From: a virus
Virus record (IMG/VR): IMGVR_UViG_3300031565_000153
Coordinates: 1-37,922 of that record
Reading direction: 5' to 3' (one strand)
Length of the DNA: 37,922 nt
Positions 3,899-35,902 of this stretch are shown piece after piece. The position numbers and the translations under genes are program-made. Every line of letters begins with the position of its first letter. The first letter of the stretch is position 1. The notes beneath the pieces are model-generated. The model saw only the letters and a list, made by a program, of their open reading frames with translations, searched no databases and was not told where the DNA came from.

Positions 3899-5719
3899 TT
3901 ATCCCACCAATAAATATCTTGGACGAATCACTACAGTCGCTCTATCGGTATTTGTACTGGTCGTCGTAGATTTATCTCTAAACTCTCTAGTTTGCGATCC
4001 AAATATTGGAACACACATAATCGTATTTGTTACGTTTGGAATCAATGTAATCATCGAACCCTGGTGTGACTCATCGAGAGGAACTATTAAATTATCGACA
4101 GCACCAGACGTTGTTCGGTAATCCACTACAGACTCAGCAATATATGGCGCTGACGGATTGAAATTCGAGTAAACCTCAATGCCATCTCTGCTAGTATTCC
4201 ATCCGGCATGTATATACGAATTTGCATCATCGCATGGAATCAAGTATATTCCATTTATTGTCAAATCAGATGAAGCCGAAACAGCCTCCAGCAACCTAAA
4301 CCTCAGCGATATCCCATACACGATAGTAGTATCTGGGTGATCTGCGCCACGCGATCCGCGAGGTGTAAAGTCGATAACCCCTAAGTCTGCCATCCAGTAT
4401 ACTGTATTAGCGGGCGGTCTAATCCAGTTTGTCTTAAAGGCATCAGATGTCACTACGGAATTACTAGCAAACACGTAAGCCTGCGCCTCAATGTTGGCTG
4501 TATCCATATCTATAGACGCAATGATTTTATACCTACCAGATACCCCTGGCTGAGCTACGACATACGCATTAGTTACACTATAGCCATCATCAGACATAAA
4601 TGTCGCCAGATTTGTATACATATCAGAAGTGTTGCCCATTGCAATGTACGCCTGATGCGTATTGAACGCCAAAGTATTCGTCGGAGTAAGGCCACTTGGC
4701 GCAGCAACAGTTGTAAAGTATCCAACTCCAGTTTCAATCTCGTGCCTTACAAATGGCGTCGATGCATCGTAATTTGCACTCCAAGTACCACCATCAACCC
4801 TGTGCTTTACGTTCAGTGGACTCAAAGAATTGACGTAAATCTCGTATAATTTTCCAGTTGAAGACTCGACATCTCCATACGGAATGAACTGAGTGCTATA
4901 CAATCCAGAAGAAATATTTTTAGGCAAGCTCGGAGTATTCCAAATGCTACGCCCATAATCTCTTGCGATAATCATGCCGTTGCCATTTGTGTTGGTCGTC
5001 ATTCTCACAAGAGCATCATGTGACCCAGGAATATTAGCACCTGTTATCACAATGCGATTAGTTCGACCAGAAGTCCCGGCAGGATATGGAATGGAATACA
5101 GGTTTGCCACATCAGCAACCTCGCGCGGAGGACCAACGGCAAGCGGCTCACACTCTAGCATAAGCTCTACTTCAGTAGCCAAAAATCCACCATCATTAAT
5201 GGCTACCCCATCAGCACTGAATAGGTTATTTAGCGTCTGCTCGCCAGCGATAACCCTAAATATATACACCCTGTTATCGGCTCTAGTTGTTCCTAGCTCA
5301 TCAGTGTAATTAGAACCAGTAGTTGGGCCGAATTGAATCTTTAGAACAACGCCGCCATCTCCAGAGTACGTTTCATCGTTGGCCGCTGGATAATAATCGA
5401 ACTTGCCATCAATAATGCCACCGGATATCGATTTATTTAGATTGGCCCTGGCTAAAATACGAAAAACTTTATTCGCTGCATCCATTATACCCTTGCGAGT
5501 TGTCGCTTTAATCTGATAAAGAAACGTAATTTCCCTGTTCTCGTAACTACGAGAAATCAAATTACGCGATACTGGATTCATCAACTCTAACCTACGCTCG
5601 ATTGGGTCTGGTACAGGAGCGTCAAAGGTTCCATCTAATAGATAGTACGTACTTGTTGCATCTGAAATAAAGTCTACGTACTCAACGCTATCTTGCAATC
5701 TTAATGTAAAGTCTGCCAT
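3899..5719 (-). CDS. Distal tail protein-like (Dit-like) tail-tip component
   Basis: 606 residues, starting at ATG 5719, whose A and T overlap the tape measure stop (TAATG), indicating translational coupling. The N-terminal about 170 residues (MADFTLRLQDSVEYVDFIS, then ENREITFLYQIKA and KFDYYPAANDETYSGDGG) match the general pattern of distal tail / phage tail family proteins that follow the tape measure gene. The remainder, residues about 200-600, is beta-rich with two putative galactose-binding-like modules. The length exceeds a minimal Dit (about 250 residues), so this is probably an evolved form with extra adhesion domains. Gene order (tape measure, this protein, hub, fibre) is the main support. 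Confidence 0.6.
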   Translation of the reverse strand: MADFTLRLQDSVEYVDFISDATSTYYLLDGTFDAPVPDPIERRLELMNPVSRNLISRSYENREITFLYQIKATTRKGIMDAANKVFRILARANLNKSISGGIIDGKFDYYPAANDETYSGDGGVVLKIQFGPTTGSNYTDELGTTRADNRVYIFRVIAGEQTLNNLFSADGVAINDGGFLATEVELMLECEPLAVGPPREVADVANLYSIPYPAGTSGRTNRIVITGANIPGSHDALVRMTTNTNGNGMIIARDYGRSIWNTPSLPKNISSGLYSTQFIPYGDVESSTGKLYEIYVNSLSPLNVKHRVDGGTWSANYDASTPFVRHEIETGVGYFTTVAAPSGLTPTNTLAFNTHQAYIAMGNTSDMYTNLATFMSDDGYSVTNAYVVAQPGVSGRYKIIASIDMDTANIEAQAYVFASNSVVTSDAFKTNWIRPPANTVYWMADLGVIDFTPRGSRGADHPDTTIVYGISLRFRLLEAVSASSDLTINGIYLIPCDDANSYIHAGWNTSRDGIEVYSNFNPSAPYIAESVVDYRTTSGAVDNLIVPLDESHQGSMITLIPNVTNTIMCVPIFGSQTREFRDKSTTTSTNTDRATVVIRPRYLLVG

Positions 5720-14511: not shown

Positions 14512-16998
14512 ATGGCTATCGTTTCATCCGGAAACGAATATCTAGCAGTTAGTGATGGCCCTAGCAGCCTGAGGAGCTTCACCTATTGTACTTGGGTCTA
14601 CTTTGATACCGCGGCACTTGGTATTTACCAAGGCGCGATTGGCGCGCATTATATCAATAGCGCCAATTGTAACTATTTTAGCGGCAATTGGGATGGAAGT
14701 TACTTAGCGTACCATACCAGCGTAAGTGATTCATGGAACGAAACGCAATTTCTCCAGATGTCTACCTGGGGAAATCAATGGGTTTTTCTTGCCTGGAGTA
14801 CAAACGGCAGCGGGTCAACCACACTATACTGGCGCGGCCTGACGGATAGTACATTCTACAGCACAACGGCAAGCGGCACAGTAGGAACGTGGACGCCCAC
14901 GGATTCGGCTATCATGGGCACACAAATGTGGCCGAGTGAAACGCGGGACGATGTTTGGATCGTCGCGTCAAGGCGATGGACAGCAGCCCTTACCGAGTCT
15001 GAATTACTAGCGGAAAGTTATCATATCACACCGGTTCGATGGGCTAACTTGTGGTCGGCTACACCGCTATTGGTTGGCGGTCAAAATCCTTATCACGATC
15101 TAACGGGCTATCGGAATTGGGCACCGAGCGACGCGGCGTCAAACTGGACTACCGTAGACAATCCGCCGATAGCCTGGGGCGCGCCGATCTGGATAGTTGG
15201 CCAACCTGCGGGCGGCGGGCCAACCTCAATCGAGGGTACACTTTCTAAGACACTAGCGGATGCAACACTGTCATCGGCTGGAGAATTGACAATTGAAGGT
15301 TCTGCGGCAAACACACTAGGCAACGCAACGCTATCCGCATCTGCGAAACTTGCAATTGCCGGATCGTCAAGCATAACATTAGGCGATACCACAAGTGCAT
15401 CAACAGGCGCTTTGGCACTACAGGCAAACGCATCCGTAACACTAGACGACGCCACGCTTGAATCCGCTGCCGCATTAACGTGGGAACCGATTACTGGATC
15501 GTCAGACGTAACACTCGATGATGCAACAGTATCCTCTTCCGCCGCTCTTGCTATTGTCGGTAGCCTTGCAAAAACACTATCTGATGTAAGTGTGTCATCC
15601 CAGGCAGCACTAGATGTTGTTGGACAATTAGCAAAAACATTAGCGGATGCAGCATTAACATCGACCGGCGCACTGTTAATTACTGGACAATCATCAAGTA
15701 CACTGGACGATGTTTCCGCAACATCATCTGGCACACTACCAATTGATGGACAAGCTGGCATTACGCTATCTGATGCTACAGTTGTATCGGCTGGTAAACT
15801 GGCAATAGATGGGCAACTTGCATCCCAACTAGATAGTGCAACCGTTTCATCGACAGCCAAACTGTCCATCACAGCAACATCTAGCACAACGCTTAATGAT
15901 GTTGTGTTGAATAGCTCAGGAACATCTGGGCAGGGCGGATCGCTAAGCATAACGTTGGCAGATGTAACAATTACAAGCGCCGGAACACTATCGATTAGTG
16001 GGCAGGCATCAAATACATTGGCCAATGTGACTGTCGATGCCACTGGCGAGGCGTCCAAATCTGGACAACTAACATCGCTATTGGCCGATGCGACAATAAC
16101 ATCAACAGCAAAATTGTCAATCACAGCAACGGCCAGCGCGACACTAGAAGATGTTACACTTGAAGGTGCCGGAACATCTGGGCAAGGTGGATCGCTCAGT
16201 GCCACGTTAGCTGATGTAACTATCGCCAGTACAGGCACGTTGTTGATTCAAGGTCAATCCAGCATAACTCTAGACAATGCCACAATTGCCTCAGATGGCG
16301 CTCTAGCAATCGTCGCTGCGCTAAGTGCGACGCTTGCAGATGTGACACTAGAATCGACTGGAATCATCGCATCTGGAGCCACTGGCAGCCTTATTGCCAC
16401 ACTTGCAGATGCAACAATGGCGGCAACAGGCGTACTACCAATCAGTGGACAGACGGCAAGTACCCTAGATGATGTACAATTAACATCAACTGGTACTACT
16501 GCAATACTTGGCGCTCTTGCTTCCACGCTTGCGGATGCAACGTTATCCGCCACGGCAAAACTTGCGCTAATTGGACAATTGGCATCTACTTTAGAAGATG
16601 TCAGCTTAGTCTCTACTGGCGAATTAATTTATGGTGGATCACTCAGTACCACCCTAGATGATGTTACAATAGTAAGCACAGGCGAACTGTCAATCGTAGG
16701 CTCATCCTCTGTCACACTAAGCGATTCGCTACTAAGTGCAACTGGCGTATCGACTTTATCTGGTCAATCTGGAATTACGCTAGAGGATACTTCGATAACT
16801 GCCGTTGGCGCTCTATCTATTACTGGACAATCCAGTATAACGCTAGATGGTGTTACATTATCTAGTACCGCAGCAATTGATTTGACAATAGCAGTAGTTG
16901 TTGGAAGTATTATAGGATTACGCAACACAGGAACAGTAACCGGAGTGAAAACAAGTGGAAGTTTCCGTTCCGTTAAAACAAGCGGGAGTATGCAATAA
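14512..16998 (+). CDS. Repeat-rich appendage protein with N-terminal LamG-like domain
   Basis: 828 residues. Residues about 1-230 resemble a concanavalin/LamG-type jellyroll: FTYCTWVYFDTAALG near the start, then WVFLAWSTNGSGSTTLYWRG and SAIMGTQMW. From residue about 242 to 793 there are 26 tandem repeats of about 21 residues with consensus roughly Q-SSTLADATLSSTGALSI-G. They are extremely rich in Ser, Thr, Ala, Leu and Asp, and two copies end in GTSGQGG instead of the usual strand. The C-terminal tail (VGSIIGLRNTGTVTGVKTSG) is distinct. The regular repeat suggests a beta-solenoid or stacked-turn fibre, with the lectin-like domain binding a surface. No chaperone or protease domain is seen. Likely a virion appendage; the adhesion role is inferred. 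Confidence 0.7.
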   Translation: MAIVSSGNEYLAVSDGPSSLRSFTYCTWVYFDTAALGIYQGAIGAHYINSANCNYFSGNWDGSYLAYHTSVSDSWNETQFLQMSTWGNQWVFLAWSTNGSGSTTLYWRGLTDSTFYSTTASGTVGTWTPTDSAIMGTQMWPSETRDDVWIVASRRWTAALTESELLAESYHITPVRWANLWSATPLLVGGQNPYHDLTGYRNWAPSDAASNWTTVDNPPIAWGAPIWIVGQPAGGGPTSIEGTLSKTLADATLSSAGELTIEGSAANTLGNATLSASAKLAIAGSSSITLGDTTSASTGALALQANASVTLDDATLESAAALTWEPITGSSDVTLDDATVSSSAALAIVGSLAKTLSDVSVSSQAALDVVGQLAKTLADAALTSTGALLITGQSSSTLDDVSATSSGTLPIDGQAGITLSDATVVSAGKLAIDGQLASQLDSATVSSTAKLSITATSSTTLNDVVLNSSGTSGQGGSLSITLADVTITSAGTLSISGQASNTLANVTVDATGEASKSGQLTSLLADATITSTAKLSITATASATLEDVTLEGAGTSGQGGSLSATLADVTIASTGTLLIQGQSSITLDNATIASDGALAIVAALSATLADVTLESTGIIASGATGSLIATLADATMAATGVLPISGQTASTLDDVQLTSTGTTAILGALASTLADATLSATAKLALIGQLASTLEDVSLVSTGELIYGGSLSTTLDDVTIVSTGELSIVGSSSVTLSDSLLSATGVSTLSGQSGITLEDTSITAVGALSITGQSSITLDGVTLSSTAAIDLTIAVVVGSIIGLRNTGTVTGVKTSGSFRSVKTSGSMQ
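15236..16890 (+). repeat. 26 tandem protein repeats of about 63 bp within the appendage gene
   Basis: In-frame units of about 21 codons, the core being TL-D-V/A-T-x-x-S-T-G-x-L-x-I-x-G-Q. The DNA is diverged between units, so the array is old or codon-shuffled rather than a fresh expansion. Two units (starting near 15866 and 16118) share the variant GTSGQGG ending, which points to duplication of a block of about four repeats. Confidence 0.85.
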
Positions 16999-22224: not shown

Positions 22225-22841
22225 GTAATCTCCTTTATTGCGATGCCAATTGCTTCAAGTTCTGGTCGTACTTGCTTGTACGCCTCTTCAACGTAATCAA
22301 ACATTCTTGCGCCGCTTGGCGGTAGTTTTCTGAGCCTAGACAATCCGGTAGACCCAGCCCCAACACCAGTAGCAAATGATTTTTGAATTGCAAATGCAAT
22401 CCTAGTTTGGTTCAGGTCATCCTCATTGCTAAGGTTTGGAATGTATGCCATCCAGTCGCGTAGAGCAGCAATTGTAGGAATACCTTGATTATCAAGGCTT
22501 CTCCATGTACTCTTATACGCAATGTCTGAATCGATATCCATGCGACCCGCACCGTATCTAACCTTGTGAAATGAATCTACTAACGCTCTTGACGCCGCAA
22601 ATTTTTCACCCTGTTCGCGCATTGCATCGAGCATTCTATCTGCAACAGGCTCAATAATATCATCGAGTATCTTGCCACTTGCGCTTGCTGCCTGCATCGC
22701 TAAAAGATTATCTATGCCAGGAGAGTACCTAACTTTCATTTTGACTAAATCAACACGAAATACTTTTTGGCCAAGCGATGTAGTCTTAAATGATCTTATC
22801 GTATTGCGCAATCTTGCAGAGATGACCGATATAACACTCAT
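22221..22841 (-). CDS. HK97 gp10-like head-tail joining protein
   Basis: 206 residues, ATG 22841 overlapping the connector stop. It contains LAMQAASASGKILDDIIEPV, MLDAMREQGEKFAASRALVD and a C-terminal PSGARMFDYVEEAYKQVRPE, an arrangement seen in gp10-like minor head/neck proteins. It is larger than the about 130-residue minimal form. It is expected to act at the neck. Assignment mainly from order: connector, this gene, tail terminator. Confidence 0.6.
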   Translation of the reverse strand: MSVISVISARLRNTIRSFKTTSLGQKVFRVDLVKMKVRYSPGIDNLLAMQAASASGKILDDIIEPVADRMLDAMREQGEKFAASRALVDSFHKVRYGAGRMDIDSDIAYKSTWRSLDNQGIPTIAALRDWMAYIPNLSNEDDLNQTRIAFAIQKSFATGVGAGSTGLSRLRKLPPSGARMFDYVEEAYKQVRPELEAIGIAIKEIT

Positions 22842-23428
22842 GCTACTCGAAACTTCTTTCCGAGGAATGTCTCAATGATTCCCTCGATTTTGCCGTGTAT
22901 TCCCCAGCGAATCAACGGGTCTTCTGTCGCTGCGCTTTGTCCTGGCCGATAAAACTGAATAACAGCTTCGGAACCCTCCATAGTGTGGAGATTCGCAAGT
23001 TCCTTAATTATCAAAGCAACAACAAGAGCAACAGAATAATCTATAGTCGAAGTTCCACTCGTATATACAAGTGTAACATTTTTGTCGCCTTCAGTGATAA
23101 CCTGATCGTCTGCATATGGGTTTCCTGTGTATCCAGAATCGGACAACACAATGCTTGTTGTGTCATATGATATATATGCACTATCGACAGAATACCCATC
23201 AACGGTTACGGAAGTGACAGCCGAAATTGGCGGCTGGTGTACATCTATTCTTGGCAGGTCTCGACCATCTCTGACCTCTGTTATGGATGTCGGTGCTCCA
23301 ACATTCCAAATCCCAGCAATACGGCCAACGATTCCGGTTGCCATGTTGTACCATATATCTCGCAGGTCTGATTGTTTAATGCCCGCAAGTAGAGCAACTT
23401 CTTCTTTAGAGATCATCTCCCATGCCAT
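22838..23428 (-). CDS. Head-tail connector (gp6-like adaptor)
   Basis: 196 residues. ATG 23428 overlaps the stop of the CHAT-like gene (TAATG). N-terminal helix ISKEEVALLAGIKQSDLRDI, a beta-insert with TSVTVDGYSVDSAYISYD, and a C-terminal helical part (VALVVALIIKELANLHTMEG) follow the pattern of the head-tail connector fold that docks on the portal. The insert between helices is longer than in HK97 gp6. Cytoplasmic assembly factor that becomes part of the virion. Confidence 0.7.
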   Translation of the reverse strand: MAWEMISKEEVALLAGIKQSDLRDIWYNMATGIVGRIAGIWNVGAPTSITEVRDGRDLPRIDVHQPPISAVTSVTVDGYSVDSAYISYDTTSIVLSDSGYTGNPYADDQVITEGDKNVTLVYTSGTSTIDYSVALVVALIIKELANLHTMEGSEAVIQFYRPGQSAATEDPLIRWGIHGKIEGIIETFLGKKFRVA

Positions 23429-24108
23429 TAGTATACCCCGCTACTATGCAAAAATAACAACATAAAAATTACCGAAAATAATACCAAGTTTGCTATAATC
23501 GACAATCGCAATGTTCTCGCCAGTAATCTAACAAGATCGTTGATACTTTGAAGAGATTGATCCAATTCGTCTAACGCAAGTTGTTCTGGTCTAGACAATA
23601 GAGCCTCAAGACTAACGGCAAACCCGTATGTTCCATCCTGTCCAGTTCCAGATTGCGAAAAAGCCAAAGGGTAATCAATCGATCCCTTTTCGTGCCCATT
23701 TTGATGTTCAATGTACTCGTAAAACGCAAGTGGAAATTTCCATGCGCTAAATTCTGGTATATCCATGTTGGCAAATATCGCATACGGAATGCCATGAGCA
23801 GTCGCATAAGATGCTAATTTTCCGGTGTTGCAACCGTTAAAAAAGACAAGAGATGCCTCTGCTAGTTTTGATACTGTAACAATATCTTCTGGCGATAAAA
23901 CCTCATCGCCGCTGAGCTGTATGCCTGCTGGCCCAGAGTGAGAAGCAAAGTGCAATGCATCTATTTGTTGTCCGCGCGCAGCTTGATAAACATCCTGCGT
24001 CGTAACTGTGCCATTAAGTGTCTGTACGCGATGCATTCCACTTAACGTTCGTATCTCAGATATACTATCAATATTACTCGACTCTGGTGCTATTAGCAGT
24101 ATTTTCAT
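23428..24108 (-). CDS. CHAT/caspase-like cysteine protease with C-terminal membrane anchor
   Basis: 226 residues. The N-terminal about 170 residues follow the CHAT/caspase-fold pattern: a first strand KILLIAPES, then DALHFASHSGPAGIQLSGDE, with candidate catalytic His57 in the position of the HG motif, and SLVFFNGCNTGKLA, with candidate catalytic Cys93 after a hydrophobic strand. IPYAIFANMDIP and AFYEYIEHQNG follow as later elements. Residues about 203-220 form one hydrophobic segment (SIIANLVLFSVIFMLLFL), predicted to anchor the domain to the inner membrane. The gene lies between the major capsid protein and head-tail connector genes, overlapping the latter's start. A protease here is unexpected, because the prohead protease is a separate gene. 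Substrate unknown; possibilities are host-takeover, exclusion or lysis-timing roles. Confidence 0.75.
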   Translation of the reverse strand: MKILLIAPESSNIDSISEIRTLSGMHRVQTLNGTVTTQDVYQAARGQQIDALHFASHSGPAGIQLSGDEVLSPEDIVTVSKLAEASLVFFNGCNTGKLASYATAHGIPYAIFANMDIPEFSAWKFPLAFYEYIEHQNGHEKGSIDYPLAFSQSGTGQDGTYGFAVSLEALLSRPEQLALDELDQSLQSINDLVRLLARTLRLSIIANLVLFSVIFMLLFLHSSGVY

Positions 24109-24129: not shown

Positions 24130-24147
24130 GGGGGGCCGAAGCCCCCC
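24130..24147 (-). promoter_or_regulatory. Very stable UUCG hairpin downstream of the capsid gene
   Basis: Minus strand GGGGGGC-TTCG-GCCCCCC: seven GC pairs closed by a c(UUCG)g tetraloop, 17 nt after the capsid stop and 21 nt before the next ATG. No T run follows, so it is more likely a 3'-end stabiliser or processing boundary that sets capsid mRNA above downstream mRNA than a full terminator. Confidence 0.75.
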
Positions 24148-24164
24148 AATACATTTACTGTATC

Positions 24165-25472
24165 TTAGGCCAATTTGACGCGTCGTGCCATCGCATGAAG
24201 CTGAGGATACGGGACCAACGCAGCCATGAACCCTTCAATCATATACTCAAACGCACTCTTGCGAGTGGCCAGAGGAATGTAATTGAAGAAAGTCTCGGTG
24301 CGCTCGCCCAACGGACTCATCATACCAACAGACTGAAGGCCGCGCTGTGCATCCAGATCGACCAAGAAGATCGACTGTTCGCCAGTGGTAAGCGGCTTGA
24401 CATTCGTGTTGGGAGTGTAAGTACCGTCATCAGTCCAAGTAGCAACATTCGTGCTAATTGCACCGTCAGAAGCATAGGTCTTGGCAGCAACCGTAGCCAG
24501 AAGGCCATGATTGTCAGTGCCAGTCGTTAAGGCTCGGTAAATCTTGTACAGCTTAGCATTCGCATCAGCCGTCCAAGTCAACACAACTTTGTTGTTCGTG
24601 GTCTCAGTCGTCGCACTATCTTCCGTGCCGTGCAACTGCTCACCAGCATCGGTGACGCTAGAAATGACGTAGAAATACTCATCATCGGCCAGCGATCCGC
24701 CAGCGCCCTTCGTCGCGGTGGCAGCAGGGGAAGTCGTGGTCACAGCAGGAGTTGCGTAGCTCGCAGGAAGCAGAGGAACGCCACGATAGCTGCTGAAGCG
24801 CAGGCCACCAGGAAATTCAACGCTATCTACGTTACGGGCAACACGCGTCTGCAAACCAGAAACCTTGCTGATCATCTCGTTGCTCATCAAGAATGCACGA
24901 GCATCGCGCTGTGCGGCGCGGTAGCTATTCACACGGTCAATCATGTTGTCCAGGTGAGTAAGCGTAACGACGCCATCAACATTCAAGATGTTTCCACCAC
25001 TGGCCAAAGCGGTCTTGGCAGTAGAGTCTTCTTCCATCTGAGTGGCAAGGCCATTAATCTGATAGGTATCTATATCATTACCAAAAATGACCGACCATTC
25101 AACCATCTCAGCCAAACCCTCAAGGGAACCAATCAGTTCCGCCTGAAGCGCATTAACAAAGCGCTCGGAAACGGCCTGCTGGTATCCAGAGACACCACCC
25201 CACGTGCGCAGAATCTTGAGTTGCTGCGATTCACGCGTGTAGGTGCTGGACGAAGCGGTCGTTGCTGTCAGTTCGCCTTCGAACCATGCAGACGGAACAG
25301 CAGTTCGCTTCACATATTCGTGCGTTTTGCCTTCGGCTTGTTTCTTGGGCATCAGTTGCCACAGCGGGCTAAGACGACCAAGATATTCCATAATAACCGG
25401 ATTCAGGTCTTCAGGAATCAGGTACTGACCAGAACCAGTGGTCTGTTGCAATGCTTTAGTCAGAGCATCCAT
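24165..25472 (-). CDS. Major capsid protein (HK97 fold) with inserted Ig/FN3-like domain
   Basis: 435 residues, ATG 25472 with GGAGG 6 nt upstream. An HK97-type core is suggested by the N-terminal arm and E-loop region (YVKRTAVPSAWFEGE, SQQLKILRTWGGVSGYQQAV), the spine-helix region (RFVNALQAELIGSLEGLAEM) with IFGNDIDTYQINGL, P-domain ARAFLMSNEMISKV, and the C-terminal EQSIFLVDLDAQRGL and LGERTETFFNYIPL. Residues about 241-360 interrupt this core with a beta-sandwich-type domain (DEYFYVISSVTDAGEQ, VVLTWTADANAKLYKIYRA), resembling an FN3 module and probably displayed on the capsid surface. No long N-terminal delta domain is present. Scaffolding is likely supplied by the preceding gene. Confidence 0.88.
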   Translation of the reverse strand: MDALTKALQQTTGSGQYLIPEDLNPVIMEYLGRLSPLWQLMPKKQAEGKTHEYVKRTAVPSAWFEGELTATTASSSTYTRESQQLKILRTWGGVSGYQQAVSERFVNALQAELIGSLEGLAEMVEWSVIFGNDIDTYQINGLATQMEEDSTAKTALASGGNILNVDGVVTLTHLDNMIDRVNSYRAAQRDARAFLMSNEMISKVSGLQTRVARNVDSVEFPGGLRFSSYRGVPLLPASYATPAVTTTSPAATATKGAGGSLADDEYFYVISSVTDAGEQLHGTEDSATTETTNNKVVLTWTADANAKLYKIYRALTTGTDNHGLLATVAAKTYASDGAISTNVATWTDDGTYTPNTNVKPLTTGEQSIFLVDLDAQRGLQSVGMMSPLGERTETFFNYIPLATRKSAFEYMIEGFMAALVPYPQLHAMARRVKLA

Positions 25473-25486
25473 TATTTATTCCTCCA

Positions 25487-26833
25487 TTACATGCGACGCG
25501 CGGCGGTCAGAGCAAGCAGCTTGCTTAGCTCATCAGTCGGCATCGTTGATACATCCGCCTGCTTAGGCTCTTCATCGACCTTCTCGTTATGCACCGCAGC
25601 CTTGCGCTCAGATCGAGCAGCGGCCAGTTCAGCCACTATCGCGGAGACAACACCCTTGAGTTGTTCATCATTCAGAACAACAACAGTTTCTTTGGCACCG
25701 TCATCGGCAGATTTCTCTTCGACTTCCGGTTCCACGACAGGCTCTTCAGCCTCATCGACGGGTTTGTCATCTTCGACTTTTGGTTGCAATGCTTCCACGA
25801 GACGAGCGTCAAGATCGTCCAAGCGTTTGGAAATAGCTTCAATCGCTTTTGCGAGTTCAATTGCCTTATCGACATTTTCGCCTTCGGCCTCAACTTCAGC
25901 CTCGGCAACTACATCTTCAAGCTGCTCGTCTGCGGGCTGCTCATCGATAACCTCATCGGCCTCGACAGCTTTTTCCTCGACAGCAACTTCTTCTTCAGCA
26001 ACAGGCTCAGCGACTTTATCCTCTGCCACGACTTCGATTTCCTCAGCCGCGACCTCTACATTTTTTTCGTCGCTCACAGTAACCTCCGATTGTGAATTTA
26101 ATACATCAGATTCGTTGGACGCAATGTTGGTATCTTGTTTGACACCATTGCCGGAATCATCGACCGGCAATTCTTTTGTATTATCAGCGTGAATAGCATC
26201 GTACATTTCTTTTGTAACTACCACATCCACCGAACTATGCACAATACCGCTAAGCGTATCTAGTGCTTTCGGCTGGAAAATTGATGGTAGTACATCGGCC
26301 TGTACGCCACTACTTTTTTGACTATCCTGCACGCGAGCCTGCGGGTTTGCAGGACGATCAACAATGCTGACCTCCACCAAAGCCAATCCGGTGATTCTAA
26401 ATATCTCACCGTATTCCCTAAACATATTAACAAGAGACATCGGCACGCCAGCCAAATCTTCCTCGTTCAAATTATCGAATCGAGTAAATTCACCCTTAGT
26501 GACTAGGATGCCAACGCTAAATGCCTTGTATACTTTATCTTGAACAAGTTGAAGTACATTTGTTCCAGATGCACTATTGCTAATCTTAGCAGCAATCCAA
26601 TTCCACTCTGGAATACCAATTTTATCTGCAACACCAACGGCGTTTTCGTGCATCTCGCGGATTGTTCCCCAAGTGCGATAATCATCTAACGCCTCAAGCA
26701 TTGCATTCTTATCGATCATATGCCCTTGCAAATCGAGTGTCGCGCTCGTGTAATACCCAGGAACAATTCGATTTTTAAGGTCAATGCCAGATTTCTGGAT
26801 TCCACCGCTTGTCATTTTGTATAATTGTTGCAT
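25487..26833 (-). CDS. Prohead protease with acidic C-terminal scaffold-like region
   Basis: 448 residues from ATG 26833, chosen for AAGGA about 7 nt upstream (an in-frame ATG at 26875 lacks one). Residues 1-165 fit the prohead protease family: His62 (REMHENAVG), Ser106 (AFSVGI) and the hallmark LVEVSIVDRPANPQARV with Glu154. Beyond about residue 255 the chain is dominated by Glu, Val and Ala (EVVAEDKVAEPVAEEEVAVE) and then helical coiled-coil segments, characteristic of scaffold domains. The fusion implies autoproteolytic release and scaffold removal during capsid maturation. Immediately upstream of the capsid gene, as usual. Confidence 0.82.
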   Translation of the reverse strand: MQQLYKMTSGGIQKSGIDLKNRIVPGYYTSATLDLQGHMIDKNAMLEALDDYRTWGTIREMHENAVGVADKIGIPEWNWIAAKISNSASGTNVLQLVQDKVYKAFSVGILVTKGEFTRFDNLNEEDLAGVPMSLVNMFREYGEIFRITGLALVEVSIVDRPANPQARVQDSQKSSGVQADVLPSIFQPKALDTLSGIVHSSVDVVVTKEMYDAIHADNTKELPVDDSGNGVKQDTNIASNESDVLNSQSEVTVSDEKNVEVAAEEIEVVAEDKVAEPVAEEEVAVEEKAVEADEVIDEQPADEQLEDVVAEAEVEAEGENVDKAIELAKAIEAISKRLDDLDARLVEALQPKVEDDKPVDEAEEPVVEPEVEEKSADDGAKETVVVLNDEQLKGVVSAIVAELAAARSERKAAVHNEKVDEEPKQADVSTMPTDELSKLLALTAARRM

Positions 26834-26844
26834 GTGCAATTCCT

Positions 26845-27129
26845 TTATCCATCTGCGGATTTTGCTTTGTTGCATTCCTCCAAAATGCCTTTAGCGGCAG
26901 CAACAGTAAATCCGGTAAACTTTTTGCGAAACACAGTATATTTATTCTCGCAAAGTTCAATCAAATCGTAACACGTAATATCGTATGTACCACCACCGAA
27001 ATCAAGCAGATCGCCATACTCGTTTTCTTTCCATTGCTTTACAATGTCGTTTGCAACTTCTTCGGGCAGCACTTCGCTAACTAGCGTGCCGTGCTCCATA
27101 TTCACAAAATGCAATCCATCGCTTCTCAT
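26845..27129 (-). CDS. Small hypothetical protein in head unit
   Basis: 94 residues, best start ATG 27129 (AGGAGG at 27134-27139, 4 nt ahead). ATG 27132 is one codon earlier and too close to the ribosome binding site. Features are a HGTLVSEVLPEEVANDIVKQ helix region, a Cys pair (TCYDLIELCENK) and a C-terminal helix (AAAKGILEECNKAKSADG). No family is recognised. It is the first gene behind the promoter at 27140-27168, followed by protease-scaffold and capsid. Confidence 0.65.
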   Translation of the reverse strand: MRSDGLHFVNMEHGTLVSEVLPEEVANDIVKQWKENEYGDLLDFGGGTYDITCYDLIELCENKYTVFRKKFTGFTVAAAKGILEECNKAKSADG

Positions 27130-27139
27130 CATGCCTCCT

Positions 27140-27168
27140 ATTATACCATAGAATATCGGTTATGTCAA
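27140..27168 (-). promoter_or_regulatory. Internal sigma70 promoter for protease, capsid and connector genes
   Basis: Minus strand TTGACA (27163-27168), 17-nt spacer ending CTATGG, TATAAT (27140-27145). It sits between the zinc-ribbon gene stop and the next start, and would boost capsid-level expression. Confidence 0.9.
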
Positions 27169-31810: not shown

Positions 31811-34800
31811 ATGCTATCTTTTCATCTTGACCATGAGTTTGTAGATCGATATCGAGATCGTCCAGAGCCATTTGGGTTTGGCTCTCTTGGGGCTGTGACA
31901 TTTTATCGCACGTATGCTAGGGTAAAACCTGATGGTAATCTAGAATCTTGGGCAGACGCTTGCGAGAGAATTATCAATGGAATGTACACAATACAGAAAG
32001 ATTACGCATCGGAACATGGTGTACCGTGGTCAGATGATAAAGCAAAAGAGTCAGCACACGAGGCATACGATAGACTGTTTAACTTGAAGTGGAGTCCACC
32101 AGGACGCGGATTGTATCATATGGGTGCCCCATCAGTACATGAGCGTAATATGGTAGAGGCAACGAACAATTGCGCGTTCACCAGCACGCAATCAATTCGA
32201 GATCACAAAGGCCATATCTTTGAGTGGGTCATGGAGATGTTGATGCTCGGCGTTGGTGTTGGATTTGATATTCGTGGCGCTGGCCTAGTAGAGATTGTTA
32301 AGCCACGAGATACCGATCTCAATATATTTGTCATACCTGACAGCCGAGAAGGATGGGCAGATTCGATAGGCCGACTCGTGTCGTCCTACATACCGAATGG
32401 CGATGTCCAGCACGCCGTAACATTCGACTACTCTTTGATTCGCCCAAAGGGTTCGTTAATCCGCGGATTTGGCGGGGTGGCTAGTGGATATGAACCTTTG
32501 GAGTGGCTTCACGATAAGGTTCGTACAATTTTGGACGATGCACATGGAGATCGCATTTCCGGTAGAATCATCACTGACATCATGAATATGATTGGCGTTG
32601 TAGTTGTTGCCGGTAACGTGCGGAGAAGCAGCGAAATTGCCCTTGGAAGTCCATTCGATACTGAGTTCGCTAATCTTAAAAATTACACGCAGAATCCAGA
32701 ACGCAAGGAGTGGGGATGGTCTTCAAACAATAGCGTGTTTGCTAACGTTGGCATGGATTACAAGCCGTTTGTTGAAAGAATTATGGATAATGGCGAGCCT
32801 GGATTCGTGTGGTTAGAAAACGCGAATAAGTATGCTCGTATGAACGGCATTGAAGATCATCGTGACTTAGCTACTGGAGTTAATCCATGCTTCCGTGGCG
32901 ATACGCTTATACGCACCAAGAACGGAGATGTACCCATTGTTGATTTGGTTGGAGAGACCGCCGATATATGGGACGGTAGCCAGTGGGTTGCGATTGACAA
33001 CTTTAGGGTAACTGGAACCAACCAAAAAGTATTGCGAATTGAGCTTCAAGATGGAACAGAGCTATTTGTTACGCCATACCACACAATGGTTCTTGACGAT
33101 GGCACTTCTCGACAGGCGAAAGATATTGTAGCTGGCGATAAACTACAATCATCTACTGCCCCGGAGTCTCATGGAGATTTAGATGTTGCAGGCGCATATG
33201 TAAAAGGATTTATGCTTGGAGATGGTACTTCTCATGGGACTGTACCGGCGCTATGGTTATACGATACAAAAAAAGTATGTGCCGAGAAAATCGTGCAATC
33301 GTTGTCCGAGATTCCTGCACGCGATGGAAGAAGCGACATGATTAGCGAGCCAAACTATACGGATGGCGAATACAGCAATGGTCGCTCGGTGGTTGTGATC
33401 CAAGGATTACGCGCTAGAGATTATGATATTATGCCGTGGGCAACAACATATAAAGATAAACTTCCGTTTGAGGTATTTGGGTGGAATAGAAAATCGAAAC
33501 TAGAGTTAATTGCTGGAATCTTCGATTCCGATGGCACGGCATTTGATACGAATAATGGATTTGGATATCAACTTTCATCTGTACGCCGCGAGTTTCTATT
33601 AGATGTACAAACACTACTAAAGTCAATCGGAGTACATTCAAAACTTGCCATGTCGCACGAGGCAGGAATACGCGATTTTGGCGATGGTTATGGAGAATAT
33701 AAAGCTAAAGAATGCTGGCGTTTATCTATTGCTCAACACGCAAGCATCGTTTTGTCTAACCAGATACAGTTTGCCAGATTGGATAACTTACACCTGACGT
33801 GTAAGACAACATATCAATATACGTTAAAATGGAATACAGTTGTCAAGATAGAGCCTGCTGGAACAGAGGACAAAGTGTATTGTTGTACTGTACCTACGAG
33901 CCATCGAATCTCGTTGTCTTGCGGGATTGAGACTGGACAGTGCGGCGAGCAGTTTTTGTACGGATGGTCGCCCGCTGGTGTTGGCGGTGAGCTATGCGTA
34001 GCTGGCGATACGCAAATACAAACAGAAGATGGTATATTCCGAATCTCCGACTTGGTTAATAAGCGCGTTAAGATTTGGAACGGAGAAGAGTGGTCTGAGG
34101 TTACTCCATTTTTGGCTGGAACCGGAAGCCTTTACAGGGTGACACTATCGGATGGTTCGTACTTAGATGCGACCCCAAAACACGAATGGATTGCAAAAAC
34201 AAAAACCCAGGCTAAGTATCGAACGCACACGACGGATTCCCTCGAAGTCGGAATGGTTCTTCCGAAATTCGAAGTAATAGATTCTGGCGGAACCAGTGAC
34301 AAACACGCATACGAGCTTGGGTGGTTTACTGGTGACGGATATATAGATGACAACAGAAAAGCACTGGCGGTTATTCAGGAGAACGAATATTTTATAGGAC
34401 AAGATGCTGGCTGGAATATGTGGAAAGAGCAGCATCCTGCTGGATATTCACGTCCGTTCCGCAGGGTAAACTTTAGCGGGGAAATCGATATGGATACTGC
34501 GGTTCAACTGCGAGATCATGACGCCGGTCTTGCTAGTCGAATCATGCGTATGGACGCAGATGGTATTTCCGAGTTCATGGGTGGGTGGATAGATGCAGAT
34601 GGTTCAATAGCTAAAAACCCCAACACGCAACATTATGTGTTGTATGGGTCAGAACAAAAGCTGAGAGATGCGCAAATACTATTGCGGAGAATCGGGGTAA
34701 ACCACGCTACAATACGATTGTTGTCGCCAACTGGGACAATCACGAATTATGGACGAAGAAATTACGATTTGTGGCGAATGTTTATCCCTAGCTACGAGTG

Positions 34801-35902
34801 CAGTAAAATAAAAACAAGGCTAAAGGTTATCGAGCGGTTTGGCTCTGAATATCAAGAAAACCATGCCCATAAAAATTCAAAGCCGATCAGCAGGGCAAAA
34901 CGACAACGGGTTGTAAGCATCAAATTAATCTCGGACAGCGAGCCAACATATTGTTTCAACGAGCCGATGCGACATATGGGTGTATTTGGAAACGTAATCA
35001 CGAAGCAATGCACCCTTGTAGAGTTGTACCCGAATCGACACGATTCCTTCTACGATTTCGCACGTAGTATTAAGTTTGCATACTTGTACGGGAAGTCCAT
35101 TACGCTTCTCAGCGAGAAAATTGCACATCCTGGTACGCGACAGCTTATGATGCAGAATCGTCGCATTGGCCTATCGATGACTGGCATCGCTCAGTTTGTC
35201 GCATCGCGTGGCATGGGAACACTTGTCAAGTGGGCAGAGGATGGTTATTCATACGTCAAGCACTACGATAAGAGATATAGCAACTGGTTCGGCGTCAATG
35301 AGAGCGTGCGCGTCACGACCGTCAAGCCATCTGGAACGGTATCTCTGGTTGCCGGTGCGACACCAGGGGTTCACCATCCTGTTGCTGAATATTACATTCG
35401 TCGTGTGCGATTCTCGGATAATAGCCACTTGGCAGAACGTTTACGAGAAGCAGGTGTTCATATCGAGATAGATGATTATTCGCCAAATACGGTTGTGGCT
35501 GAATTCCCAATCCATGCCGGAGACAATCTGCGCCGTGCTAAAGATTTGACTATTTGGGAACAGTTTAATCTTGCGGCCATGATGCAACGCCATTGGTCTG
35601 ACAATAGTGTGTCAGTTACAATCAGCGTCAACCCCGAATCGACAACGGCACAGGAATTGTCGATTGCGCTAGACCACTACCAGCACTCTCTGAAATCAGT
35701 TTCAATGTTGCCAGAAGTTAGCGGCGGCGCGTACACCCAGATGCCATACGAGGAAATCAATGAAGTTCGCTACGGCTTAATGGAAATGAAAATTGATTAT
35801 TCGAAACTAAAGAATTTGAATATTAAAAACGTAGCTCCGGTAGATAGACTGGTAGATGCTTACTGCGATGGAGATGCATGTCAAATTCCGTTTGTTAAAT
35901 AG
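31811..35902 (+). CDS. Class II (B12-dependent) ribonucleotide reductase precursor with two inteins
   Basis: 1363 residues, ATG 31811 with GGGGGA about 9 nt upstream. Extein segments at 1-359, 711-728 and 1067-1363 join to a 674-residue enzyme of the monomeric adenosylcobalamin-dependent reductase type. Catalytic features are Cys121 (NNCAFTST), the NPCGEQ active-site loop with thiyl-radical Cys711 and Glu713, its partner cysteine Cys1067 (LCTLVELYP) and the C-terminal redox pair Cys1352/Cys1357 (YCDGDACQIP). A specificity/phosphate-binding region includes TTVKPSGTVSLVAG. It supplies deoxynucleotides for phage DNA synthesis, probably independent of oxygen. Both inteins must splice before activity is possible. 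Confidence 0.92.
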   Translation: MLSFHLDHEFVDRYRDRPEPFGFGSLGAVTFYRTYARVKPDGNLESWADACERIINGMYTIQKDYASEHGVPWSDDKAKESAHEAYDRLFNLKWSPPGRGLYHMGAPSVHERNMVEATNNCAFTSTQSIRDHKGHIFEWVMEMLMLGVGVGFDIRGAGLVEIVKPRDTDLNIFVIPDSREGWADSIGRLVSSYIPNGDVQHAVTFDYSLIRPKGSLIRGFGGVASGYEPLEWLHDKVRTILDDAHGDRISGRIITDIMNMIGVVVVAGNVRRSSEIALGSPFDTEFANLKNYTQNPERKEWGWSSNNSVFANVGMDYKPFVERIMDNGEPGFVWLENANKYARMNGIEDHRDLATGVNPCFRGDTLIRTKNGDVPIVDLVGETADIWDGSQWVAIDNFRVTGTNQKVLRIELQDGTELFVTPYHTMVLDDGTSRQAKDIVAGDKLQSSTAPESHGDLDVAGAYVKGFMLGDGTSHGTVPALWLYDTKKVCAEKIVQSLSEIPARDGRSDMISEPNYTDGEYSNGRSVVVIQGLRARDYDIMPWATTYKDKLPFEVFGWNRKSKLELIAGIFDSDGTAFDTNNGFGYQLSSVRREFLLDVQTLLKSIGVHSKLAMSHEAGIRDFGDGYGEYKAKECWRLSIAQHASIVLSNQIQFARLDNLHLTCKTTYQYTLKWNTVVKIEPAGTEDKVYCCTVPTSHRISLSCGIETGQCGEQFLYGWSPAGVGGELCVAGDTQIQTEDGIFRISDLVNKRVKIWNGEEWSEVTPFLAGTGSLYRVTLSDGSYLDATPKHEWIAKTKTQAKYRTHTTDSLEVGMVLPKFEVIDSGGTSDKHAYELGWFTGDGYIDDNRKALAVIQENEYFIGQDAGWNMWKEQHPAGYSRPFRRVNFSGEIDMDTAVQLRDHDAGLASRIMRMDADGISEFMGGWIDADGSIAKNPNTQHYVLYGSEQKLRDAQILLRRIGVNHATIRLLSPTGTITNYGRRNYDLWRMFIPSYECSKIKTRLKVIERFGSEYQENHAHKNSKPISRAKRQRVVSIKLISDSEPTYCFNEPMRHMGVFGNVITKQCTLVELYPNRHDSFYDFARSIKFAYLYGKSITLLSEKIAHPGTRQLMMQNRRIGLSMTGIAQFVASRGMGTLVKWAEDGYSYVKHYDKRYSNWFGVNESVRVTTVKPSGTVSLVAGATPGVHHPVAEYYIRRVRFSDNSHLAERLREAGVHIEIDDYSPNTVVAEFPIHAGDNLRRAKDLTIWEQFNLAAMMQRHWSDNSVSVTISVNPESTTAQELSIALDHYQHSLKSVSMLPEVSGGAYTQMPYEEINEVRYGLMEMKIDYSKLKNLNIKNVAPVDRLVDAYCDGDACQIPFVK
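32888..33940 (+). mobile_element. Intein 1 of the reductase (LAGLIDADG type)
   Basis: 351 residues, 360-710 of the precursor. Begins with Cys360 (CFRGDTLIRTKNGDV) and ends SCGIETGQ before Cys711, so the terminal residue is Gln and the usual penultimate His is absent. Block B has TPYH (421-424). The homing endonuclease part has two LAGLIDADG-like helices, VKGFMLGDGT (464-473) and ELIAGIFDSDGT (565-576), both with the catalytic acidic residue. Inserted exactly between Pro and the thiyl-radical Cys of NPCGEQ. Confidence 0.9.
33995..35008 (+). mobile_element. Intein 2 of the reductase (LAGLIDADG type)
   Basis: 338 residues, 729-1066. Begins CVAGDTQIQTEDGIF and ends GVFGNVITKQ before Cys1067, again with a C-terminal Gln. 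Block B is TPKH (788-791). LAGLIDADG-like helices are YELGWFTGDGYI (834-845) and EFMGGWIDADGSI (921-933), the second with intact acidic residues. It lies only 18 extein residues after intein 1, immediately before the second active-site cysteine. Confidence 0.9.

Follow-up and report, generated by a model that had tools for sequence, protein, structure and literature searches.

A predicted membrane-tethered CHAT protease encoded between the capsid and head-tail adaptor genes of a tailed phage, possibly acting in host lysis

Bacterial CHAT proteases are known chiefly from antiviral and cell-death systems, and the closest described relatives of the phage protein reported here include two of the proteins in this group, SAVED-CHAT, a type III CRISPR effector (8tl0), and TPR-CHAT, the Csx29 component of Craspase (8d9h, 7y85). 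Csx29 cuts a specific protein once, using the catalytic residues H615 and C658 (PMC10028731). Further likenesses are found in DdvA, a transmembrane anti-sigma factor of about 900 residues (8rot, 8rw5), and in the separases, caspases and legumain of clan CD. Phage-encoded CHAT or caspase proteins were not found described in the open-licence PMC literature, and tblastn searches of annotated phages with either of the two phage CHAT proteins discussed below returned a best E value of 2 or worse.

The gene is located in IMG/VR virus record IMGVR_UViG_3300031565_000153, of which positions 1 to 37,922 constitute the window, meaning the whole stretch of 37,922 bases that was analysed. It occupies 23428..24108 on the minus strand and encodes a protein of 226 amino acids, predicted to be anchored in the membrane by its tail. 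Upstream on the same strand lie the major head protein gene (24165..25472, phrog_212, 9e-16) and a separate head maturation protease gene (25487..26875, phrog_80, 1.1e-7), while the head-tail adaptor gene follows downstream (22838..23428, minus strand, phrog_442, 2.9e-8), its start overlapping the CHAT stop exactly as TAATG. The initial annotation, made from the sequence without database searches, had read the gene as start-stop overlapped with a connector, set between it and the capsid gene, in a phage with its own prohead protease, and these family matches bear out that arrangement.

The protein contains a CHAT domain, an assignment that is held with near certainty. Its score against the Pfam CHAT family (PF12770) is 26.4 bits, above the gathering cut-off of 24 (E 5.7e-6), and that of its homologue in a related phage, L003, is 22.8 bits, slightly under the same cut-off (E 7.3e-5). 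When a profile of these two sequences was searched against the whole PDB, the single significant match was SAVED-CHAT 8tl0 (E 1.9e-4), the other match listed having an E value of 0.67. The predicted catalytic residues are His57, within the motif HFASHSG (codon 23938..23940, minus strand), and Cys93, within FFNGCNTG (codon 23830..23832, minus strand), the latter being the sole cysteine in the residue list; both are shared without change by 8tl0 and cellular CHAT proteins, and were kept in all five of the diverse CHAT cores aligned. Searches with the window protein gave no match in NCBIfam, in the holin families of Pfam or PHROG, in the spanin families of PHROG, or in prohead protease families, and PADLOC returned no defence-system match except a weak, unrelated one to HamB.

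Weak tblastn matches on plasmids proved to be CHAT-bearing or similar proteins, and a match in phage Simon was rejected when reading through the region revealed no CHAT-like open frame. As a separate observation, a CHAT protein on a Rhizobium plasmid lies near a SIR2-family gene (L082:544-5042), in what may be a defence locus. A scan for viral relatives with a cyanobacterial CHAT pair found none. To find the host, 84,980 bacterial and archaeal genomes were scanned with the CHAT core and with the capsid alignment, and no relative was found; since all these scans rely on near-exact short peptides, the absence of more phage CHATs is weak evidence.

Structural comparison points to the same family. 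The window protein was modelled with AlphaFold2 from a two-sequence alignment (pLDDT 65) and the homologue was modelled as well (pLDDT 58), the confidence of both models being moderate. The window model presents strands and helices in the order expected for CHAT, with predicted strands at residues 51-55 and 87-91 preceding the His57 and Cys93 motifs, respectively, in agreement with the CHAT hallmark of a catalytic His and Cys that close adjacent core strands. Its top match is 8tl0 (Foldseek 2e-5; Z 10.8, 3.6 A over 150 residues), a match on which the placing of the CHAT domain at residues 1-165 (23614..24108, minus strand) is based, followed by DdvA at Z 9.3; TPR-CHAT scores 7.8, and receiver domains reach 8.8. 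The homologue model matches SAVED-CHAT at Z 11.3, DdvA at 9.3, separases at 8.4, TPR-CHAT at 8.3, caspase-7 at 6.6 and legumain at 5.9, almost all of its matches belonging to clan CD. The match lists of the window model also contain PLP enzymes and receiver domains, which were set aside as a common Rossmann-like resemblance and are absent from the list of the homologue. The two motifs, each placed after a strand, and the caspase-clan fold first proposed from the sequence stand on the Pfam score, the 8tl0 profile match and the structural matches, and the structure prediction suggested at that stage recovered the caspase-like core.

Although SAVED-CHAT is the best structural match, with His and Cys at the same positions, the phage protein lacks the SAVED cyclic-nucleotide sensor domain, as Pfam finds CHAT only and residues 167-226 form one helix; it is also membrane-anchored and encoded in a head operon, in a window without CRISPR context. 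It shares the CHAT fold with TPR-CHAT of Craspase, whereas it has neither a TPR domain, since CHAT begins at residue 1, nor the RNA-guided Cas7-11 partner, and it carries a membrane anchor. DdvA, also a membrane protein, matches the models through its C-terminal part (residues 803-991, Z 9.2-9.3), but differs in its size and in being an anti-sigma factor. Separase, caspase and legumain have the same overall fold, while their sequence similarity is not significant and their partners and organisms differ. Among viral proteins in BFVD, A0A1P8DJ94 and A0A8S5MXG5 (Myoviridae sp. ctWaE18) resemble the model with Foldseek E values of 2e-7 and 3e-5, a likeness of predicted fold at 15-17% identity. The fold is therefore not new to phages; the minimal membrane-tethered form, its location and the exchange of its anchor described below seem to be.

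The membrane segment that had been read at the protein end is placed at residues 202-220 (23449..23505, minus strand) by hydropathy and flanking charge, with a mean Kyte-Doolittle value of 2.72. Of the 24 window genes scanned, a set without the tape measure gene and the larger genes of the head, no other gave a clear transmembrane candidate, the next best value being 1.59. The AlphaFold2 model draws the stalk and the transmembrane part as one predicted long helix, residues 167-222 (23443..23610, minus strand), with pLDDT above 90 around residues 190-220; the stalk is helical, and the heptad test is not significant (p 0.41).

The homologue is carried by L003, the closest distinct phage among the relatives found through their capsid (57% capsid identity), where a CHAT protein of 257 amino acids occupies the same capsid-adaptor slot with the adaptor gene directly after it. 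Its recovery by a search of this interval in related phages, a check foreseen from the beginning, came with both catalytic residues kept, so that the refuting case named at the outset, homologues lacking both, did not arise. The two proteins align with an E value of 3e-8 in a single pairwise comparison and are 26% identical over the core. The His and Cys motif blocks agree at 13 of 17 positions, compared with 25 of 131 in the rest (Fisher p 4e-6; these motifs had been named in advance and the exact column limits were chosen after seeing the alignment), so that the catalytic motifs are the best-conserved blocks, which favours selection on catalysis. The protein is probably an active protease. 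In the homologue the order of parts is reversed: a transmembrane segment at residues 5-23 comes first, then a coiled coil (heptad p 0.0004) and then CHAT, whereas the window protein begins with CHAT and ends with the helix and its C-terminal membrane segment. In both proteins the flank of the membrane segment that faces CHAT carries three K/R residues and the opposite flank none, so that the positive-inside rule predicts a cytoplasmic protease in both; the anchor has moved to the other end of the protein and the predicted side of the protease is unchanged. A membrane tether holding the protease on the cytoplasmic side, as the charge rule indicates, is very probable. The N-terminal transmembrane and coiled-coil region of the homologue also gives a weak match to the Rz-like spanin profile phrog_214 (3.7e-4), which may reflect merely a transmembrane helix combined with a coiled coil.

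The slot between capsid and adaptor was surveyed in 33 loci with the adaptor placed automatically, together with the window, where it was placed by hand, giving 30 distinct relatives. It is empty in 19 of these, with the adaptor 72-210 bases after the capsid gene, and occupied in 11, eight of which hold a membrane protein. CHAT occurs in the window and in L003, that is, in two phage lineages among 46 records, and a search of the remaining 44 records, of which many are fragments, gave no further CHAT domain. Small proteins with one to three transmembrane segments fill the slot in L031, L040, L057, L058 and L062; these are holin-like by size and transmembrane count only, most having no family match. 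In L033 (5399-6739) the slot carries two transmembrane proteins, one with a weak holin-profile match (0.003), and a papain-family (C1) peptidase, and this phage has a GH25 endolysin about 3 kb downstream. An SDH/ClpP-type serine protease (PF01972, 2e-21) is found in L042 (5054-5965), and the same in L063, bringing the proteases of the slot to three unrelated folds. Genes read from their sequence as HNH or zinc-finger types occupy the slot in L049 and L064, which indicates a general cargo site.

Expression of the CHAT gene is very likely late, judging from its position in the operon. A candidate sigma-70-like promoter lies upstream of the capsid operon (27140..27168, minus strand), matching the consensus at 12 of 12 positions with the TG of an extended -10 element, in a region whose total number of promoter-like sites is not above that of shuffles. 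Between the capsid and CHAT genes is a hairpin, GGGGGGC-TTCG-GCCCCCC (24130..24147, minus strand), with no U-run and a predicted RNA fold of -21.4 kcal/mol (z -4.6), and in L003 a strong RNA hairpin likewise stands directly after the capsid gene (4277-4312, z -6.0). With strong hairpins in this interval in both phages, the level of CHAT may be below that of the capsid protein.

The carrier looks like a lytic-style tailed phage, in view of the ribonucleotide reductase in the window and the DNA-metabolism genes beyond it. A second record, 99.9% identical to the window over 10.2 kb, runs past its high end, where RecA, RecJ-like nuclease, primase, SSB, dUTPase and ThyX genes were read, and a NADAR-domain gene stands just past that end (L067:9232-9726, Pfam, 1e-44), with a possible tie to nucleotide-based defence. 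No integrase was seen in the window or the extending record, both of them fragments. The ribonucleotide reductase is of the B12 type (31811-35902, plus strand) and is split by apparently two inteins with LAGLIDADG domains. Additionally, a glycosyltransferase-like gene (PF13524; 20333-21475, minus strand) lies between tail genes, with the gene for the major tail protein immediately downstream, and a gene similar by eye takes the matching place in L075 (6677-7723), which may make it a feature of the clade. Also flanked by tail genes is a group on the opposite strand that includes a fibre-like repetitive protein of 828 amino acids with many LDDAT-type repeats (14512-16998, plus strand).

The best explanation, held tentatively, is that of a late, membrane-tethered CHAT-type (clan CD) cysteine endopeptidase made together with the capsid and connector proteins and serving lysis. 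One transmembrane helix would hold the protease to the inner membrane of the host, on its cytoplasmic face, where the helical stalk may crowd it, such crowding presumably activating it; late in infection it would then cut one or a few membrane-proximal proteins, the likeliest purpose being to promote or time host lysis. That purpose, taken by itself, is likewise a tentative proposal. The lean towards lysis comes from the recurrence of membrane proteins in the slot and from the GH25 endolysin near it in the L033 phage, with the weak Rz-like spanin match of the homologue counted on the same side, and the holin-like proteins in the slot of relatives move the balance somewhat towards the timing of lysis without settling it. 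Neither a holin nor an endolysin was recognised within the window, which is a fragment, as is the L003 record, so the lysis genes may lie outside. One relative with an empty slot has a weakly holin-like gene elsewhere, hence the slot is not the sole lysis locus. A more pointed version, in which a phage executioner of caspase-like type, encoded in the cargo slot next to the capsid gene and tethered at the inner face of the host membrane, cleaves a specific membrane-side protein and thereby triggers host death or lysis, appears somewhat doubtful.

Nearly as likely as lysis is a role of the same tethered protease in counter-defence or superinfection exclusion, whereby it would cleave a membrane-associated defence effector of the host or a receptor-side protein, or block the entry of rival DNA. 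The sporadic presence of the gene in a variable cargo slot suits an accessory gene of an arms race, the swapped anchor with kept catalytic motifs suits fast-changing targeting, and the NADAR-domain gene on the same phage offers a possible link to nucleotide-based defence. However, a position in the structural operon is late for blocking most defences, and PADLOC recognised no defence system beyond the HamB match.

A protease for assembly or processing, which would work on head or connector proteins where assembly takes place at the membrane, would fit a gene flanked by those of the major head protein and the adaptor and overlapping the latter, yet it is improbable, as a head maturation protease is already encoded separately, relatives with the same head genes leave the slot empty (19/30), and a membrane anchor is odd for such work. 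The same count of empty slots makes a virion-structural role unlikely. Equally improbable is a decoy or sponge with no catalytic activity, binding at the membrane either what activates a host CHAT or caspase-like defence protein or what that protein cuts. The bare CHAT domain with no sensor would suit this role, but the role would not require His and Cys, and in the two homologues of about 26% identity conservation is highest in the catalytic motifs.

A minimal, tethered CHAT protein borne by phages, with its anchor swapped from one end to the other and its motifs kept, suggests that viruses have repurposed this protease fold. If they have, knowing what the protease cuts would expose a point of late control at the membrane of the host, either over lysis or over defence. 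The variable slot after the capsid gene is a simple place to seek further such cargo. Were the executioner version to hold, it would represent the viral use of a protease fold that bacteria employ for defensive cell death.
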